64,000 nucleotides of DNA from Ecdyonurus torrentis (taxonomy: Eukaryota > Arthropoda > Insecta > Ephemeroptera > Heptageniidae): positions 2,234,089-2,298,088 of the forward strand of contig OX439133.1 in the NCBI GenBank assembly GCA_949318235.1, in the 5' to 3' direction. The notes beneath the pieces were generated by a model. It had not been told where the DNA came from and made no database searches. It saw nothing but the letters and a program-made list of their open reading frames with translations. Position numbers and translations under genes: made by a program. Within the stretch, counting starts at the first letter, position 1. Each line of letters opens with the position of its first letter. This document shows positions 29,717 through 40,400 of the stretch, piece after piece.

Positions 29717-29985
29717 TTAAAGGCATAGAACGCATTGAACAAAAAACTTATCTAATATTATAGTCATTGATTTGTAATTTATTTTACATTCACAAAACGA
29801 CAGCTGCGTTATGACGTCACATCTCACTAGTCCATGTGCAAGTAAAACAATTGAGCTGTGACGTCATAAACCCACAGCTATTTTGTAAATGTAAAATAAA
29901 TTAGAAATCAATGACTCCGGCCAAATCACAGTTGATATTTAGATATGTTAGGATATTAGACATGTTTATTGTTCAATGCCTTTAA
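29717..29985. mobile_element. MITE family D, copy 1, flanked by TTAA
   Basis: TTAAAGGCATAGAACGC at the left and AATGCCTTTAA at the right, with inverted arms (ATTGATTTGTAATTTATTTT and its partner) around GTGACGTCATAA. Others at 35887-36195, 48908-49224 and 62072-62655. Confidence 0.88.
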
Positions 29986-30006
29986 GTTTTTTCTTTTAAA
30001 ACATAA

Positions 30007-30205
30007 ATATCGATCTTGTTGCGAAAAAAAGGCCCATCTCGTTTTTTGTCAGTGAAAGCAAAAGGCCTATCTCGAGCGCTATCGCCATAATGTTCGGGAA
30101 CGAGATAGGCCTTTTGCTTCCACTGACAAAATACGAGATACGCCTTGTGCTTCCACTGACAAAAAACGAGATAGGCCTTTTTTTCGCAATAAGATCGATA
30201 TACCT
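30007..30205. mobile_element. Foldback element I, copy 1
   Basis: Ends ATCGATCTTGTTGCGAAAAA and its inverse TTTTTCGCAATAAGATCGAT. Inside are inverted copies of GTCAGTGGAAGCAAAAGGCC followed by TATCTCG. Confidence 0.88.
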
Positions 30206-30804
30206 AAAAAAAAAAAAAAAATTGAAAGTTTGTTTTTATGGACCACTTGAAATGAAATGTTTTTAATTATTGCAACATGTTAGTGAAAATGATTATTCAA
30301 TAAGACATTAAAAATATTTAAATTTATTTTCAATAGTTCATTGATTGCAAGTGGTCTATTTGTCTTAAAAACTTTATTTTTTGAACAGATTTTGCATCAA
30401 GTCATTATTTACATTATTTTCAACAAAACTGAAAGTTTCAATTAAATTTTCATCAATTCATTACTTTAGCATAGCAGGCAAATTATCCAGTGAACAGATT
30501 CGTCAAATTTATACATTTTTGTTACTGTATCTAATTTTAAATACACATCAATTATTTTGGGCTGTTTTTGAATAACTGTTCAAAATGAGAGACAATTAAA
30601 GTGGTTTCTTAATTGGTGACCACTTGGTTCATATTCTTGACCTTGAAGTGACCTAGGTCATATTACTGACCCAGAACAAATACTATGCAGCATTAGTAGT
30701 AACAATTTCACACAGACACGAGATTTCAAGTAAACATAATTTTGGTTGTGGTTTTATGCTGTTTTGCTCTAAAATCTACTGGGAATTTATTTATTCATTT
30801 CAGG

Positions 30805-30835
<31 letters not shown>

Positions 30836-30887
30836 GAACACAACTAATGATAAAAAAAAAGAAGATATCGTCGGCTTGAAATACATG

Positions 30888-31211
30888 TTGATCTTGTTGC
30901 GAAAAAAAGGCCTATCTCGTTTTTTGTCAGTGGAAGCAAAAGGCCTATCTCTTATTTTGTCAGTGGAAGCAAAAGGCCTATCTCGTATTTTGTCAGTGGA
31001 AGCAAAAGGCCTATCTCGTATTTTGTCAGTGGAAGCAAAAGGCCTATCTCGTTCCCGAACGTTATGTAGATGGCGCTCGAGATAGTCCTTTTGCTTTCAC
31101 TGACAAAATACAAGATAGGCCTTTTGCTTCCACTGACAAAATAAGATATACCCCTTTTGCTTCCACTGACAAAAAACGAGATAGGCCTTTTTTTCGCAAC
31201 AAGATCGATGT
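30888..31211. mobile_element. Foldback element I, copy 2, with arm amplification
   Basis: Same ends as copy 1, but the unit GTCAGTGGAAGCAAAAGGCC + TATCTCGTATTTT is repeated four times in the left arm and three times, inverted, in the right. It probably lies in the NUP155 3' UTR if the polyadenylation signal near 30786 is used. The frames reading VEAKGLSRIL are repeat products. Confidence 0.88.
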
Positions 31212-31397
31212 GGATAAAAAAAAAATTTAAAAAAAATACGATTTTTGTCATTTGTAAAAAGCTTACTTCTTTTTTCTTGTCTTTTTGTCTTTTTTCCATA
31301 TAAGACAAATGTATTTCAAGCCAACAATTATATAAAAAAAAAAAAAAAAAAAATGTAAAACTACAAAAGAAAATAATTAAAAATCAAGAGCGTTTAC

Positions 31398-31672: not shown

Positions 31673-34272
31673 TTACATGACATTTTGACTCAATCTCTGA
31701 AACTGATTCAAAAGTTCTCTAAACAAAGTGACTTTCGTTGCCACAGTCGTACTTGGACTCTTATACAGTAAATTGAGACAGTTCGTTATGATATCCACAC
31801 ACACAGTCAACGACTCTCGACGAACTTGCCCGCTAGAAGGCAACAAACCGTTATTCTCTTGCAGATCTCTCAACAACTGAGCAACGACGTCAATCAGGTG
31901 AAGTTCGTTGCCAGCAGACGCCCAGCTCCAATCTTGCTGTAACACGAGCTGATCGTAAGCGTGAATCACTTCCTGTACACGTACCCCACAGTTCAGGAAC
32001 GCTTGGTACACTTGCCCTGGCAAGGAACGTTCCTTACACGCCTGCAACTCAAGCTCCTTGATCAAGAACTGGACAGGGAACAGGATGGGGGTCCTCTCGT
32101 ATCTATTCCCCAAGACTTCAATTTTCTGAAGCAGTAAACCCATACGATTCATGCCGTGTGGCGTCTTGTATATCTCACTACTGATGAACTTATGCCAGAT
32201 TTCCTGAATTAGGTTTGAATCTTGGTACCCAGATATATGTATAGCGTCTAATTGTATCTCCCATAACTCTAGCGGGGTAGCGAAATCTTCAAATAACTCC
32301 GTTAACGAGATTAAAGAATTCCCTAATTTTGTCATTGAATTTGGTGATAGATTATTTTTAGTCGACTGAATCTGTTCTAACATTTTTAATTGCAATCTTG
32401 CTACTGTTAACTGATCTTCTAGTTCTTTACTGAATGCTCCGATAGCTTGAGCGTATCCCACGGAATCAGAACGCATGCATAGTATCGCACGAGACAAGCA
32501 GAACATGCGTTCGTTCAACGAGAAACCATCGTCGATGCTGGTAGCGATGTTTTGTAGTATTTTAGCTGCAGCGGCGTGACGACCAGTTTTCTCATACATC
32601 GACCATAGTAATTCTGCTATTGAGCGATCATTAGGGTTAGCAGCTGCAATACGTTCTAGGTAACCTTCCAACGTGGTACCTTCTGGTGCGTTAGAGTTGT
32701 TGATCAGGATATCGTTACGTTGAAGAAGTTCAGCTTGTAAGAATCCACGTCGTACGAGCCATTCAAACACAGCAACTCGTAATAGATAATCATCTTGATT
32801 TAAGGATACTCGTAATAAGTTACGACCTAAGTTTTGACCTTCAGGTGTATTATATAACTTGTCAAGGGCATTGATCGTTTCTTTATAACATTCCTTACGT
32901 CCGTCAAAAGCTTGTCGTCCTTGTACGTCATTACCAGGTTCTTTGTTTTTGTAATATAGTATCGCGCGATCTTGTGAGTCCATTGATTTGGCAGTTACGA
33001 TGCAGATTTTGACGATACCTTCGTAAAACTGACAAGCACCAAACTGCTGACACACGGCGGGTAGGTTAACATGTGGGGCTGCGTCTTGGAGAAGTTTCAG
33101 AGCTGCTTGCAGGAATTTGTTCTTTTCCTGTGAATCTTTTTCAGTGTGTGCTTTCAGGATGAATTCATTAGCCTTGGAACAGCTAGCGTCTTCTTGACGA
33201 TACAACGTAGGGCACGTATCTCTTAACTTAGCACTGACTGCGTTGATACTGGCGTTATCTTCAAGATAAATTTGCACTAAACTGTTCACCAAAGCACCGC
33301 ACAGATCATGGCCAACCAATACTAAATCCTTGAACGTCGCTGCTAATAAACGATGTTTCTGTTCGTTACTCAATTTTTCAGCGATAACATGAAACTGATG
33401 CTCACATAATACTTTCCATAACCCAAGAATCTCTAACGAATACGTAACGAGAGTCTGTAGAGCTAACAACGACTTTCTTTCATCGTTACTATCGTTATAA
33501 TTGTCATTTTGAGTCATGAGAACCATGTTTTTAATTAAGAACTGTTTGAATGCATTCAAGTAAGTACAGATGGCTGATAGAATATCAGTATCAACTCCTG
33601 ATAATAAGATATGCTTGTTGTTATCAGTTACCATCTCGTTCGCTGTTTTCAAGTGCCAGATTGGGCGTAAGATGCGACTCAAGAACAAATACAGTCCCTC
33701 GTGACGAGCTGAATATCCCGCTGAGTTCATATTTAAATTTCGCGCGCTGATAGGGGTTGAAACTTGGCTAGGGTTGAACTGTATCGGAGACATTATAGAT
33801 GCGTTATTGTTTCTTCCATCACCACCGTACACCAAGAATGCTTTTGTCGCTGCCTCCGCTAAAGTAGGATTCGTTGAGCCTTCCAGACATGCTAGAATGA
33901 GAGCGATGGCGCACGCCTGATCCTCCCCTAAGAATGCAAAGAACGACTTAACCGCGTTACTCTCAACTCCACCGGGCCCGAGCAACGCTGCCTTCAATAC
34001 GTCACTGGGACGAAGCTTGGTGTGGACTTGAACACCTAACGTGGACAACGTAACGTATTTGCTTGGGTTCTCCATGTGTTGAGTAACAAACAGTGGAGGG
34101 TCCATCTTGTTTGGTAGTGGTGAAGTGTGGTATTCTTCAATGGCAAAGAGCTGGTCGTCCATGGATATTTGTGTTTCTGTCTCCGCTAGGTAGTGGATTG
34201 AGGGAAGTAGGTCTCGGCTGAGACAGGTGATAGTGCTACGGTCTCCTACCTTCGAGACCATCAGGAACGTAC
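31673..34272 (-). CDS. NUP155: NUP155 exon 7: single 2.6-kb terminal exon
   Basis: Phase 1 in, after acceptor CACTTGCAG|GTACG. It runs 866 codons without an intron to TAA at 31673-31675. It holds the end of the propeller and the whole alpha-solenoid. All other exons in the window are 13-374 bases, so this one is exceptional. Confidence 0.97.
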
Positions 34273-34417
34273 CTGCAAGTGATAGAGGCATTGGTAACTA
34301 ATATTACAATAATAATAATACACATTTTACCTTTTATAAAAATAAAAAAAAATGTTTGAAAAAAATATTGGCAAAAATTTAAATTTAAATAAGATATGAA
34401 AAAAATCCCAAAAATTT

Positions 34418-34463
<46 letters not shown>

Positions 34464-37400
34464 GAGTCATTTTAGTTTGCTACGTATATTAAAGTTTTGT
34501 TATACTGTTAAGGTTTTCCTTATGAATTTTAGGAAGAACATCAAAATTAAATAGCTTGATAGAAACACATAGATTAGGAAAAATTAGGGAATGGTAAATA
34601 GTATGAGCTTACACATACAGGGACGCCGTGGTAGAGAAATTATTCTATCCCATGACAAAATAAAATTTTATGCGTATGTAAAGTGGCTCATATTGCTCTG
34701 TACAAAGCGAGCTTCATTAAAAAAAGGGAATTTTGGCTTGCATATTGGTTTAGACGGCGTGACAATTGCGCATAGCACAGCACTGTCATTTTCAGCACCT
34801 CATATCTCTAGCCATGGACAGCTGTTTCGTCCTTACCGGGACTCATCAGCATGGCAAGGAGAGAGAAGCCTCATGCCCTACCTCCAGCCTCCTTGAAGGC
34901 TGGAAGAGAACTGAGTGCCTGACTGACTGGGCTGCGGCAATTTATACCCGCGGCCGTGAGCCACTTTACATACGCATGAAATTTAATTTTGGCCTGGGTT
35001 AGAATATTTTCTCTACCTCGCCTCCCTGTAAGTTCATACTATCTCACATTACACAATTGTTCCTAATCTAATAATAATAATTAATAATTAACGGCTTTTT
35101 ATTGGGCGAAATCAGGCGTACAACCTCTCAATTTAACTCAACTGTTTTACAGTACAACCAGTTACAATATATAATAAGTAATACGTGTTAGACATATAAT
35201 GTTAATAAAAAATGGATTAAAAATATTATGTTGATAAGATTTCACTAAAATTAGTTCATTTATAAACAAAATATTTCAATTTATGTTTTCCTTTCACTAA
35301 ATTACTAAATCTATCTATGTGTTTCTATCAAATCTTTTATATATTATCAACTATTGCACAGACGATTTTTGGCTAGTATTTAAAATTAAATTGCTGTTAT
35401 AAAATTTTTCTAAATCAATATTTTACTGTACATATTTAAAACTAACATGGTCAATTTATGGAAAAAAAAAAAACATCATCCCAGTTAGGATTAATAATAA
35501 AGACTAGAATAGGATCACAGGATAGAATTACCTTACTTACTTAGCTGCACAGTAGAAGTTGTATGTAGAGGTGGAGCTAGGTGTCACGTGGCACACAGTT
35601 TAGTTATAATGTTTATATAAGTGTCGTACGTCATTGTAATGACATTATCAATCAAAGTAGAGATTTACTTGAGCACATCACTGAGCAGTACAAGACTACA
35701 CACTGCTCAGTGATGTGCTCAAGTAAATCTCTACTTTGATTGATAATGTCATTACAATGACGTACGACACTTATATAAACATTATAACTAAACTGTGTGC
35801 CACGTGACACCTAGCTCCACCTCTACATACAACTTCTACTGCACACCTACGTAAGCCCAGCGATGCTGCTGTTTCTAGTCTTTTAATTAAAGGAATAGAA
35901 TACATTGAACAAAAAAGATGTCTATTATCCTAACAAACCTAAATATCAACGTTGATTTGACCAGTCATTGATTTCTAATTTATATTACATTCACAAAATG
36001 TCAGATGCATGTTTATGACGTCACAGCTCGCTAGTCCATGCGCGTGGACCAGGCGAGCTGTGACGTTATAGGCATGCAGCTGACATTTTGTGAATGTAAA
36101 ATAAATTAGAAATCAATGACTCTGGTCAAATCAACGTTGATATTTAGGTTTGTTAGGATAATAGACATGTTTTTTGTTCAAAGTTTTCTGTGCCTGTGAT
36201 ATTGCTCCTAACTGGGATGATTTCTATACTAAAATTGATAAAACAGGAGGGGGGGGGGGGGGGATTTATTATCAAAATAAAATGTAATTAAAATATAAAA
36301 AGAAAAAAAGAAAAAGAAAAGAAAAGAAAGAAAAAAAAGGAAGAAAAAAATGAAGAAAAAATAACAAATTTGCTGCTTTGCATATTGATTGATTTTTTTT
36401 TTTTAATTTTTTTTTTTTTTTTTTTTTTTTTGGTAGTGTATATTTGAGTTACCTCTCTTGTAATGTGCCTGGTAGACATTCTGTGGCTGTCCATGGTTAG
36501 CCTGAGCTGTGTAGCCTGGAGGTAACCTCACGTGCACCAAGTGTAGTCCACTGGGTCCTGGTGACCAGCTGGGGGTCACTGCACCCACGCCAAGCTAGGA
36601 GAGAGGGCAAAGTTTTACGTTAGATAAACTGTTTAGTGAGAAAACTACTGCACTGAGGTCACAAATATTTAAATGTGGAATACTAGACATACTTTTACAT
36701 GTTTTAAGACAGTAAAATGTACTAATTTCACATTGTAGAAGCCTCTTGTTAGTGTGTTTGTGAGAAAACTACTGCACTGAGGTCACAAATATTTAAATGT
36801 GGAATACTAGACATACTTTTACATGTTTTAAGACAGTAAAATGTACTAATTTAACATTGTAGAAGCCTCTTGTTAGTGTGTTTGTGAGAAAACTACTGCA
36901 CTGAGGTCACAAATATTTTAATGTGGAATACTAGACATACTTTTACATGTTTTAAGACAGTAAAATGTACTAATTTAACATTGTAGAAGCCTCTTGTTAG
37001 TGTGTTTGTGAGAAAACTACTGCACTAAGGTCACAAATATTTTAATGTGGAATACTAGACATACTTTTACATGTTTTAAGACAGTAAAATGTACTAATTT
37101 AACATTGTAGAAGCCTCTTGTTAGTGTGTTTGTGAGAAAACTACTGCACTGAGGTCACAAATATTTAAATGTGGAATACTAGACATACTTTTACATGTTT
37201 TAAGACAGTAAAATGTACTAATTTAACATTGTAGAAGTCTCTTGTTAGTGTGTTTGTGAGAAAACTACTGCACTGAGGTCACAAATATTTTAATGTGGAA
37301 TACTAGACATACTTTTACATGTTTTAAGACAGTAAAATGTACTAATTTAACATTGTAGAAGCCTCTTGTTAGTGTGTTTGTGAGAAAACTACTGCACTGA

Positions 37401-40400
37401 GGTCACAAATATTTAAATGTGGAATACTAGACATACTTTTACATGTTTTAAGACAGTAAAATATATTAAATTCTTAATAATAAATTCTAGGAAGATAATG
37501 ATTAAGACATTTAAAATTCAAAATTTCCCGCCTTGGCTGTATGATTGGCTAACACTGACCTGCTGTGAGTGATGCATGGGTGCCAGCGCAGACATGGGCA
37601 GCGTAGTGAAGTACATCCTCACTCCCGAGGAGGTCACGGCGACGAGGTGCAAATGTTTGCTCTCGTGGCTCTCTATGGCTTGCAGACTGACGATAGGCTT
37701 GAAGTGACTGCCGTCCAGGGTACGTACTACGTTGAGAGCCTGCTGTACCACTGAGGACTGTGGACATTATGTAAGAGATCAGTACTGCGTCGTGAGTTAG
37801 AGTGGGTGGGAGATATTATGTGTGGAGAGTGGTGGGAGGCAGGGAGAATAGAGGGAGTCTATTCTGAATTTAAGTCATTTAGGCCACACACACACACCCT
37901 TTCATTTTATTTTATTTATTATTATTATGAGTTCTTTTCTTTCTTCTTGTGTAACACCAACACCGGAATCCTACTTGATTCAAGGTGAAGGTGAGAATAA
38001 TCCAGTACCAATTATGTCAGAAACTGCAGGAGGTATACAGAGGGGTCACAAACTAAGCACTTTGCGCACTACGATGTTAGCTGTGCCAAGAACTGCAGCT
38101 TTCTGCATGACACGTAAATGCCTGTGCTTGAGGTTTAACTTTTCTCTTGCTTTATTATTATTATTATTTTACATTTTTCGAGAAAGAAACAAACAATTTA
38201 GTACAGGGTACGTACCACGTTGAGAGTATTTGGTACATTAAAAAAAAAGTTAAAAAGAAAAAGAAAAATTTATTTTGTTTTTAAATAATCTAATTACCGG
38301 GACTACATATTATTATTTCAAAGTACATACCAAATTTACTTTGATTAGGCTATTTGCTTTAAAAATTTCAGAAACTATTACCAGTACTTACAGTTAGGCT
38401 GTATGTTTAAAAAAAAAAAAAAAAAAAAAAAAAATATATATATATGGAAAGTACCGGTAATATTACTATACAAATTATTACCGGTACTGTTTTTTGAAGT
38501 TTTTTTATTATTTATTTTTAACCAGTTTTCAGTAAAAATGTTACAATTATTGTTGCTATTTAAAAAAAAAAATGGAACAGTTGTTTCCTATGTTACCAAT
38601 ATAAATAACACCACCAAGATGGCTGACACTCACCTCAGAGAAAGTAGCTAACTGTGTGATGCTGCCCTGGGTATCCCCCAGCTGATACGCTCTCACTTAA
38701 TATTAACCCTATGTTACCAATATAAATAACACCACCAAGATGGCTGACACTCACCTCAGAGAAGGTAGCTAACTGTGTGATGCTGCCCTGGGTATCCCCC
38801 AGCTGATACGCTCTCACGCTTCCCTTCTTAGTCAAGGCGTACATCAGGTTACGAGAGTTGTCCACGCACAGCTGCACGATGGCGTCTCTCTCGGCAAAGT
38901 TGAGGAACGAAGGCACGAGGTACGACAGCATGGAGTGAGAGTGGTTCACACGTTTGCAGCTCTTGCCAAACCAGCCTTCGTTACCCTGGTACGTGATCTC
39001 ATAGAGACAGCCGTCCTCTCCTCCCTGCATGCAACGAAACAAACACAAAGTCAGTGAGACAACAAATATCAAGTTTAAACCAATTAGTTAATTCAATCAA
39101 TTATTAACGGTGAACCTCAGGCCTGGCCCCTCCCTCCCTTTTTTTTTTTTTTTTTTTTTTTTGAACAACTAATCGTAAAATATTTTAAAAAATATTTTTG
39201 GATAGATCTTATTTTTACAAAATAGAAGTTCAAGTATAATTTCTTCATAATTGCCATACATTTCTCACAATTAATTTTTAACCATTTTTATTTTGCTGCA
39301 AAATTCAAAATCAATGTTATTCAAATGGGCAAACTAACGCTTAATTTTCTCAAACCACAAATAATTTTGAAATATAAAACAAAATCGATAGAACATGGAA
39401 ATATCTATAAAGTAAAAAAAAAAAAAGTTGTCAAACCATTTTTTTTTTTTTAATTGAAAAAACAAAAACAATGCTAATTATATGCAAATTTTAATCCTAA
39501 TTATTTCGAGTCACAAATAAATTTTGAATATTCTGTTAACTGGAGCTCGTAGATAATGATATTTCGAGGGCTACGCGGCATTTCGGTACTTGTGCAATCT
39601 CCTCGGGTGCAATTTTGGCACATGTACACCACGCCTTCTAATGGCACATCTGTACAGGCAAAGCGTATTAAGATGTTTTAAAAAAGGTGAGCGCGGAGAA
39701 TGCACTTGTGCCAAAAATGCACCCGCGGAGATTGCACTAGTACCGAAATGCCGCGTAGCCCTCGATTTTTTAATACAGTACTGTACCCCAAAAGTTTTTT
39801 TTTAAAAAGTTGTCAAACCCATTTTGAGATGTTTTGCTTTTCCCAGGTCTGAGGTTAATCCTTAAAGTCACAATAACTTCATTTTTTACTTTTTTTTATT
39901 ATTATAATTTTTTTAATGCAACTTTTCAAACTTTCTTATTTAGATAAAAAAAATATAAAAAAAAAAGTGCCAAAATTAATGGTACTTAATAATTAATTTA
40001 CCCCTGGTTACTCCTAGAAGATACCAAGTACTCTCTCTCTTTCTAAGAGAATTGCTGCTTTTTTTTTTAACATTTTAAAGAGATCCTGATGGCCATATGT
40101 TATTTGTGTGATTAATGGTTTTGATTACTAGTGACTTTAAAACTCTCTCACCTGGAAGATCCTGCCGTCGCTGGTGCCCACGGTGGTTGTGATGACGATA
40201 CCCTCGGTGGACAGTTCAAATATTGGGTCAGGTAGCAGGTTGATCAGCTGACCATGAGAGCCTTGGACGTAGGTCATCCCCAGGATCACAATCTCCACTG
40301 ACGTACACAGCACCAGCAGTTGACGTACGAACGACTGGAATACTCCGTGACGTGGTCGTACCTGCAATATATCATCTTAATTAGAAATACTTAATTAACA

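Follow-up and report, generated by a model that had tools for sequence, protein, structure and literature searches.

A hammerhead ribozyme in a NUP155 intron of the mayfly Ecdyonurus torrentis: probable component of a palindromic element mobilised by Penelope-like machinery

Introduction

An intron of NUP155 in Ecdyonurus torrentis contains, in the sense of the gene, a short sequence with all the parts of a hammerhead ribozyme. This raises the question of whether the ribozyme serves its host gene or belongs to a mobile element and, in the latter case, how that element inserts. We analysed the 64,000-nucleotide stretch of DNA that holds it (contig OX439133.1, positions 2,234,089 to 2,298,088, forward strand; hereafter the window) together with copies elsewhere in the genome. 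The literature searched contains no mention of a hammerhead ribozyme together with mayflies. In the parts of three reports that bear on the subject, the insertion of Penelope-like elements (PLEs), the origin of their palindromes with an optional tail, and the mover of animal ribozyme elements are treated as open questions (PMC11167929, PMC3846280, PMC7229834).

Results

The window contains a minimal type I hammerhead ribozyme

The minus strand at 34811-34855 reads, in succession, GCCATG, CTGATGA, GTCC, CGGTAA, GGAC, GAAA, CAGCTG, TC and CATGGC, so that every hammerhead part named in the original prediction is present and in the right order. That prediction had proposed an Rfam covariance-model scan of both strands as its check. 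The scan of the 64 kb returned a single match above gathering score, RF00163 (Hammerhead_1) at 34855-34811, with 36.9 bits against a cut-off of 34, an E value of 1.2e-5 and model positions 1-45 of 45 covered. A permissive Rfam scan of 34600-35100 listed RF00163 alone, two weaker overlapping clan matches being left out. The sequence has the CUGANGA...GAAA core, stems I to III in order, an open stem I and an NUH site, as expected of a type I hammerhead, and the predicted cut falls between 34817 and 34816, preceded by TC, at a GUC cut site. Relative to RF00163, the match covers all 45 positions and neither the core nor the GUC site is altered; a loopless 4+4 stem is also what the consensus shows at the place of the short stem III (CAGCTG), and there is otherwise no notable difference. 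The sequence is a minimal type I hammerhead ribozyme with predicted self-cleavage, correctly described beforehand as the kind known from Penelope-like elements and retrozymes.

The exact core pattern CTGANGAGTCC-N3..12-GGACGAAAC occurs 1,122 times in the genome (566+556) and its reversed control not once, and the window match is therefore not a chance occurrence.

Fold predictions depended on context. The isolated 45-mer was predicted to take a non-hammerhead fold (-15.3 kcal/mol; a structure with just stems I and II reaches -10.3 kcal/mol), while the predicted fold of the dimer is a double hammerhead at -34.5 kcal/mol. For the RNA of the whole window element, a long hairpin is predicted in which the ribozyme occupies the loop and the active fold is not adopted. 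The ribozyme of an Anolis PLE is described, in the part of the report that covers it, as not cutting unless protein is added (PMC11167929).

The ribozyme lies in a palindromic element within the NUP155 intron

The exon that begins at 34272 on the minus strand encodes the C-terminal part of NUP155, as judged by matches to Nup155 chains (E 3.4e-112) and to Pfam Nucleoporin_C (E 1.2e-114); two further exons match Nucleoporin_N. Its best named relatives are mayfly proteins, from Ephemera danica (48%), Neocloeon (46%) and Cloeon (44%). The intron, 36452-34273, spans 2,180 bp, its borders set by reading of the frame and the splice ends. These exon matches, the GT/AG ends and the frame continuous across 36452-34273 bear out the predicted location of the ribozyme in a NUP155 intron, and its sense orientation holds as well, both being on the minus strand. 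The features of the locus are as follows.

34273..36452, minus strand: NUP155 intron with the element (exon matches; GT/AG ends, continuous frame ..HYKR, G, TFLMVS..)
34543..34556, unstranded: left target-site duplication AAAATTAAATAGCT, 13/14 identical to the right copy
34557..35381, unstranded: putative non-autonomous Penelope/retrozyme-type element, a head-to-head inverted repeat (inverted repeats, genome copies, ends, target duplication)
34557..34957, minus strand: left long arm, holding the ribozyme, with its untailed outer end at 34557 (inverted repeats; inner border approximate)
34811..34855, minus strand: minimal type I hammerhead ribozyme (Rfam RF00163, sequence)
34921..34926, minus strand: TCAGTC site, about 66 nt before the ribozyme, which we take to be an initiator-like motif (sequence; putative meaning)
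34941..34946, minus strand: TATAAA box, promoter-like site upstream of the ribozyme (sequence; putative function)
34957..35381, plus strand: right short arm, about 113 bp of left-arm homology plus the tailed end (inner border approximate)
35071..35309, unstranded: unrelated dispersed repeat nested in the right arm (genome matches; borders approximate)
35332..35381, plus strand: tail, absent from the other end, containing a T run and the stem-loop ATTG-CACAGA-CGAT at 35353-35366 (end mapping, sequence)
35382..35395, unstranded: right target-site duplication AAAATTAAATTGCT, outside the inverted repeats

The element measures 825 bp and is bounded by a 14-bp target duplication (13/14); its borders were placed at 34557-35381 because the duplications lie outside the inverted repeats. 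These repeats are nested around the ribozyme (34627-34690/34957-35020, 34570-34613/35027-35070 and 34556-34574/35313-35331). The transcript sense of the left arm runs outward, from 34957 to 34557, and the right arm matches it in inverted orientation at 81% over 121 columns, the end match covering Q2-76. In the window copy a single unit is paired with an inverted one. The repeat nested in the right arm (35080-35305 searched) gave 40 matches at 91-100% from the best 40 of 1892 candidates. A tblastn search of the 64-kb window with the PLE protein found nothing, and the longest ATG/GTG/TTG ORF overlapping the element, of 101 aa and antisense to the ribozyme, is not an autonomous PLE ORF. On its sequence, the element appears to be non-autonomous and of the PLE/retrozyme type.

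Several other repeats lie nearby. In the same intron, 35475-36221 is a second palindromic repeat with another palindrome within it; it matches the 3' region of the resident PLE at 68-78%, or at up to 91% in short pieces, and its ends resemble the PLE tail (CATCATCCCAGTTAGGA / TCCTAACTGGGATGATT). Between NUP155 exons, 36630-37469 is a 124-bp tandem repeat of 6.8 copies with 98% matches, and 38587-38817 is a near-perfect 121-bp tandem duplication (99% matches) that takes in the end of a NUP155 exon. Further palindromic repeats occupy 29900-31300 and 39564-39765 (GGCCTATCTCG.. and GCGGCATTTCGGTAC..), with arms of at least 65 nt that are mostly 89-95% complementary. The stretches read suggest that the genome is palindrome-rich.

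Two families of ribozyme elements occur in the genome

A ribozyme model search of the 503-Mb genome, in which 74 candidates were scored so that its counts are lower bounds, found at least 32 ribozymes at E 0.001 or better, the window copy not among these 32, and at least 27 over the cut-off. Searching with the element DNA gave at least 108 matches, taken from the best 40 of 1,268 candidates. The core-pattern places listed, all on one contig, belong nearly all to a second family with a TAGGTAAA loop, represented here by L061, L082-L084 and L086. The second family and most window-type rows have a TATA box and TCAGT motifs tens of bases before the ribozyme, in the direction of the outer end, and these sites presumably act as a promoter.

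Tandem units were found as well. Locus L086 contains second-family units of 888 bp in tandem, each carrying a single ribozyme. In L040, where the tandem spacing is about 648 bp, a complete unit comes after the truncated end of a preceding one. At L086:365-4216 the units stand head-to-head, two minus and three plus by ribozyme count. Aligned pieces of this array are up to 100% identical, and it is therefore probably young.

Among 45-nt stretches of the arm, compared over 51 arm rows, the ribozyme (0.983) ranks highest in conservation, with 0 of 269 non-overlapping windows reaching 0.983; an overlapping neighbour window lies above it at 0.985, and 10 of 39 full ribozymes depart from a strict core pattern. 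The rows mix copies found via the ribozyme with copies found via the whole element. Conservation would thus support, without proving, selection for cutting during spread, and the comparison is suggestive only because part of the stretches were found through the ribozyme.

An autonomous partner with a window-type ribozyme was sought via the 5' part of the unit, where the best 40 of 157 candidates gave 41 places, and at one tail-only place. It was not found in the two stretches examined, L088 and L087, which proved to be fragments without a PLE ORF. The first holds a window-family piece (about 276-515 of the reverse complement) that extends only from the second stem-loop to the promoter region; it has no ribozyme, tail or palindrome, is flanked on both sides by CAGTTTTATAA, and stands outside the one-tail pattern described below.

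Scored insertions have one tail per palindrome

We mapped the insertion ends of the window family by merging loci L001-L067 into 35 genome stretches, which gave 74 end matches. Dropping six tail-only fragments left 36 left and 32 right ends, forming 30 same-locus pairs. A target-duplication score of at least 9 was reached by 20 of these 30 pairs, compared with 29 of 1,119 cross-locus control pairs. The duplications vary in length, from about 10 to 20 bp, as expected of a non-autonomous PLE derivative.

Nineteen of the 20 scoring pairs join a tailed to an untailed end. The exception, C11:29289977 (score 10), has two untailed ends, of which the right one also belongs to a tailed/untailed pair with a score of 12. 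This pair and one other, each having an end in common with a better pair, were removed, and the 18 insertions that stayed include the window copy. In 18/18, the start falls at tail position 1-4 for one end and at 30-59 for the other. The set includes two insertions that neighbour each other within one stretch, one whose duplication falls in an AT repeat, and one, C26:50601400, whose duplication is weak. The window copy and these insertions thus show the arrangement that marks a non-autonomous PLE derivative, namely units in inverted or tandem order and a tail at a single end. The ten pairs without a duplication comprise three tailed/tailed, three untailed/untailed and four mixed pairs; we judge these, and the exceptional pair, to be composites or old, decayed copies.

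The ribozyme pattern, with up to two errors, was found in both arms of five of the 18 insertions, in one arm of 12 and in neither arm of one. The truncations look independent, since the length of the shorter arm varies from about 60 to about 409 bp.

The same asymmetry was found in other elements. All seven PLE insertions, in pairs chosen from the PLE match list, have the tail at one end only, and their untailed ends use the same untailed site in five and are cut further in for two. The flanks of each insertion agree along 13-20 bp and differ at one position at most (scores 13-18), a score of 13 being reached by 0/42 cross pairs; offsets were hand-set in 2/7, some flanks lie in low-complexity DNA, and the C12 pair scores 0 with the fixed offset of the cross-pair control and 15 with a hand-set one. 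In the second family the tail stands at exactly one end in 3/3 insertions, for which no control was run. L087 is a miniature of about 65 bp in which TTTAATACCG repeats enclose an untailed and a tailed end and hardly anything else; it was picked from the tail list, and only its untailed end is informative.

For the 28 retained insertions (18, 7 and 3), the odds of finding one end of each kind throughout are about 4e-9 if ends are independent with equal odds, a figure that gives a scale only, the retained set being filtered and the true null possibly different. Inverted pLTRs have been reported to stand mostly head-to-head, to be accompanied by a target-site duplication and, optionally, to carry a tail at one end (PMC3846280, in part). 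No statement of a strict one-tail rule was found in the literature searched.

A resident PLE has 3' stem-loops in common with, or similar to, those of the ribozyme elements

An ORF near one element copy gave at least 150 matches scored of 645 candidates, often as a minus match followed by a close plus match. Locus L068 is a 99.84% palindrome with two outward ORFs of 1,027 codons. The ORF product matches RVT_1 at E 1.2e-5, which is below the Pfam cut-off, and has 256 relatives, those listed mostly with RVT_1 and several with PF01541. Pfam found no GIY-YIG domain in it even at E 10; its C-terminal part aligns, at E 2e-17, with the Pfam GIY-YIG stretch of relative P0008. No hammerhead was present among the 20 Rfam matches of L068 up to E 1, and no ribozyme was found by pattern in L085. 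The weak microRNA and snoRNA matches of L068, all below gathering scores, were rejected as palindrome artefacts. A helper of the window family, in the form of an ORF-bearing copy with a window-type ribozyme, was not found.

The 20-nt PLE tail AACCGCGATGGTTTTTTCCT recurs intact in the second-family loci L083, L084 and L086, whereas the version in L082 carries a single change. When 1 kb of L061 was compared with the 8.8 kb of L068, only one 29-nt stretch matched below E 1e-3, and this stretch is the PLE tail. The 20-mer has 1,845 genomic occurrences, its reversed control 0. Tandem and 5' copies carry a second weak stem-loop, which in the PLE is ATCG-CACAGT-CGAT, just 3' of the tail, and in the second family ATCG-CCAAGT-CGAT. 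The window-family tail contains ATCG-CACAGA-CGAT in its usual form (-1.6 kcal/mol), a T run and CC, and is followed by AGCGCAAAGTTTGCT, a T run and CC; its stem-loop resembles the second stem-loop of the PLE, ATCG-CACAGT-CGAT, without being identical to it. Predicted energies of -1.0 to -2.2 kcal/mol make all six stem-loops weak, and in longer stretches of sequence the folding is partly different.

The two kinds of insertion end correspond to two start sites, one 5' of the first and one 5' of the second stem-loop. For the Anolis PLE, reverse transcription has been reported to start at two adjacent sites, mostly at an AC-rich stem-loop, the tail being the stretch between them (PMC11167929, in part). 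We infer that PLE machinery mobilises the ribozyme elements.

Discussion

The window contains a real ribozyme and an element of a known kind that gives an unusually clear view of insertion. The ribozyme, the borders and duplications, the palindromes with their independent truncations, the single tail of each scored palindrome, the tandem units and the shared tail can all be read directly from the DNA. The account we favour, and consider probable, is that the ribozyme belongs to a non-autonomous retroelement which the genome's own PLE machinery mobilises, that one copy lies in the NUP155 intron, and that the element spreads by a cycle of paired priming. We read the priming as paired because exactly one end is tailed in the scored palindromes.

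In such a cycle, an internal promoter just upstream of the ribozyme would start an outward transcript. Where units stand in tandem, the ribozyme, acting as a dimer and perhaps aided by protein, would cut the multimeric RNA into units; cutting multimeric RNA is its likely job. The PLE protein would then bind two adjacent stem-loops near the RNA 3' end and cut both strands of an AT-rich target. Reverse transcription would be primed from both strands, a start 5' of the first stem-loop giving the untailed end and a start 5' of the second the tailed end. The two cDNAs, stopped at random points, would be joined mid-way, and the product would be a head-to-head palindrome that carries a single tail and is flanked by a target duplication of about 10-20 bp. 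Purified PLE protein is reported, in the part of the study that deals with it, to cut and extend both strands with starts at two adjacent sites; the same part describes no start-site difference between strands in vitro, which counts against strand-specific starts (PMC11167929).

The most serious alternative is a strict metazoan retrozyme, in which a circular RNA, cut by the ribozyme and ligated, would be the template, tandem units would reflect copying rounds, and the palindrome would be secondary. The tandem units of L086 and L040 speak for it, and metazoan retrozymes have been proposed to use PLEs (PMC7229834, in part). The ribozyme, however, is minimal rather than canonical, the copies read are mostly inverted and not direct repeats, and linear tandem transcripts account for the tandem units equally well. 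We regard this reading as unlikely in its strict form, although it is partly compatible with the paired-priming account.

Self-priming, by which a single cDNA, perhaps with an antisense template, would fold back and copy itself as for rotifer PLEs, has been put forward for head-to-head PLE palindromes (PMC3846280, in part), and near-perfect palindromes such as L068 would follow from it directly. Alone, it leaves the two different outer start sites of the scored insertions unexplained, and the two short pieces of L087 overlap by only about three bases. We consider it rather doubtful as the general route.

A third possibility is that the ribozyme works for NUP155 by cutting the intron of the pre-mRNA and so regulating the gene. 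Its sense orientation, intact core and GUC cut site would suit this role, as would the fact that right-arm homology stops short of the ribozyme, which sits in the loop of the element hairpin. It is nevertheless part of a dispersed repeat, the monomer is predicted not to take the hammerhead fold, and the NUP155 intron holds only one sense copy. Amniotes reportedly have ultraconserved intronic hammerheads; these share the type I form and the intronic position, whereas the window ribozyme lies in a dispersed mobile repeat. The original suggestion that the ribozyme could cut the intron is accordingly weak, given a monomer predicted to misfold and a copy with a single sense ribozyme. Cutting of this intron probably matters little, since only the dimer is predicted to give a double hammerhead. 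On present evidence the ribozyme is not a NUP155 regulator; we hold such a role to be very improbable and take the NUP155 copy to be, most likely, a passenger.

A DNA-transposon MITE with long terminal inverted repeats and a chance ribozyme would fit the long inverted repeats and the small size, but we reject it as scarcely credible, since instead of equal terminal inverted repeats and a fixed-length duplication each scored copy has two different outer ends, with arms of about 60 to 409 bp and target duplications of variable length, and the family has tandem units and the same geometry as ORF-bearing PLE copies.

The paired-priming account can be extended, more tentatively, to PLEs in general. 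We think it somewhat short of an even chance that PLE insertion is two-handed: an enzyme dimer on adjacent stem-loops would prime both strands, every new insertion would be an inverted pair with one tail, and ribozyme passengers would carry similar stem-loops. If this is true, the palindrome would be the direct product of insertion and not of later rearrangement, and animal ribozyme elements would be PLE passengers. With its 1,845 PLE-tail matches, an ORF-bearing PLE and two ribozyme families, this genome offers a one-tail pattern that can be tested.

Among known systems, the closest are PLEs with inverted pLTRs, namely Penelope of Adineta vaga (PMC3846280, in part) and Poseidon PAc of Anolis (PMC11167929, in part), with which the window element shares head-to-head units, a tail at one end and target-site duplications of variable length. 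The PAc unit also carries a ribozyme, as described in the relevant part of PMC11167929, and an RT-bearing relative is present in the mayfly genome. Unlike those PLEs, the window element has no PLE ORF, and ORF-bearing L068 has no ribozyme that we found. The tail described as optional in the pertinent part of PMC3846280 is present exactly once in the retained scored insertions here. Metazoan non-LTR retrozymes (Cervera and de la Pena 2020, PMC7229834, in part) resemble the mayfly elements in being small and non-autonomous, with a type I hammerhead per unit and some tandem copies. They differ in that the stem III here is minimal, the copies read are mainly inverted palindromes, units measure 648-888 bp as against about 170-400 nt, and the tail of the second family is held in common with a PLE.
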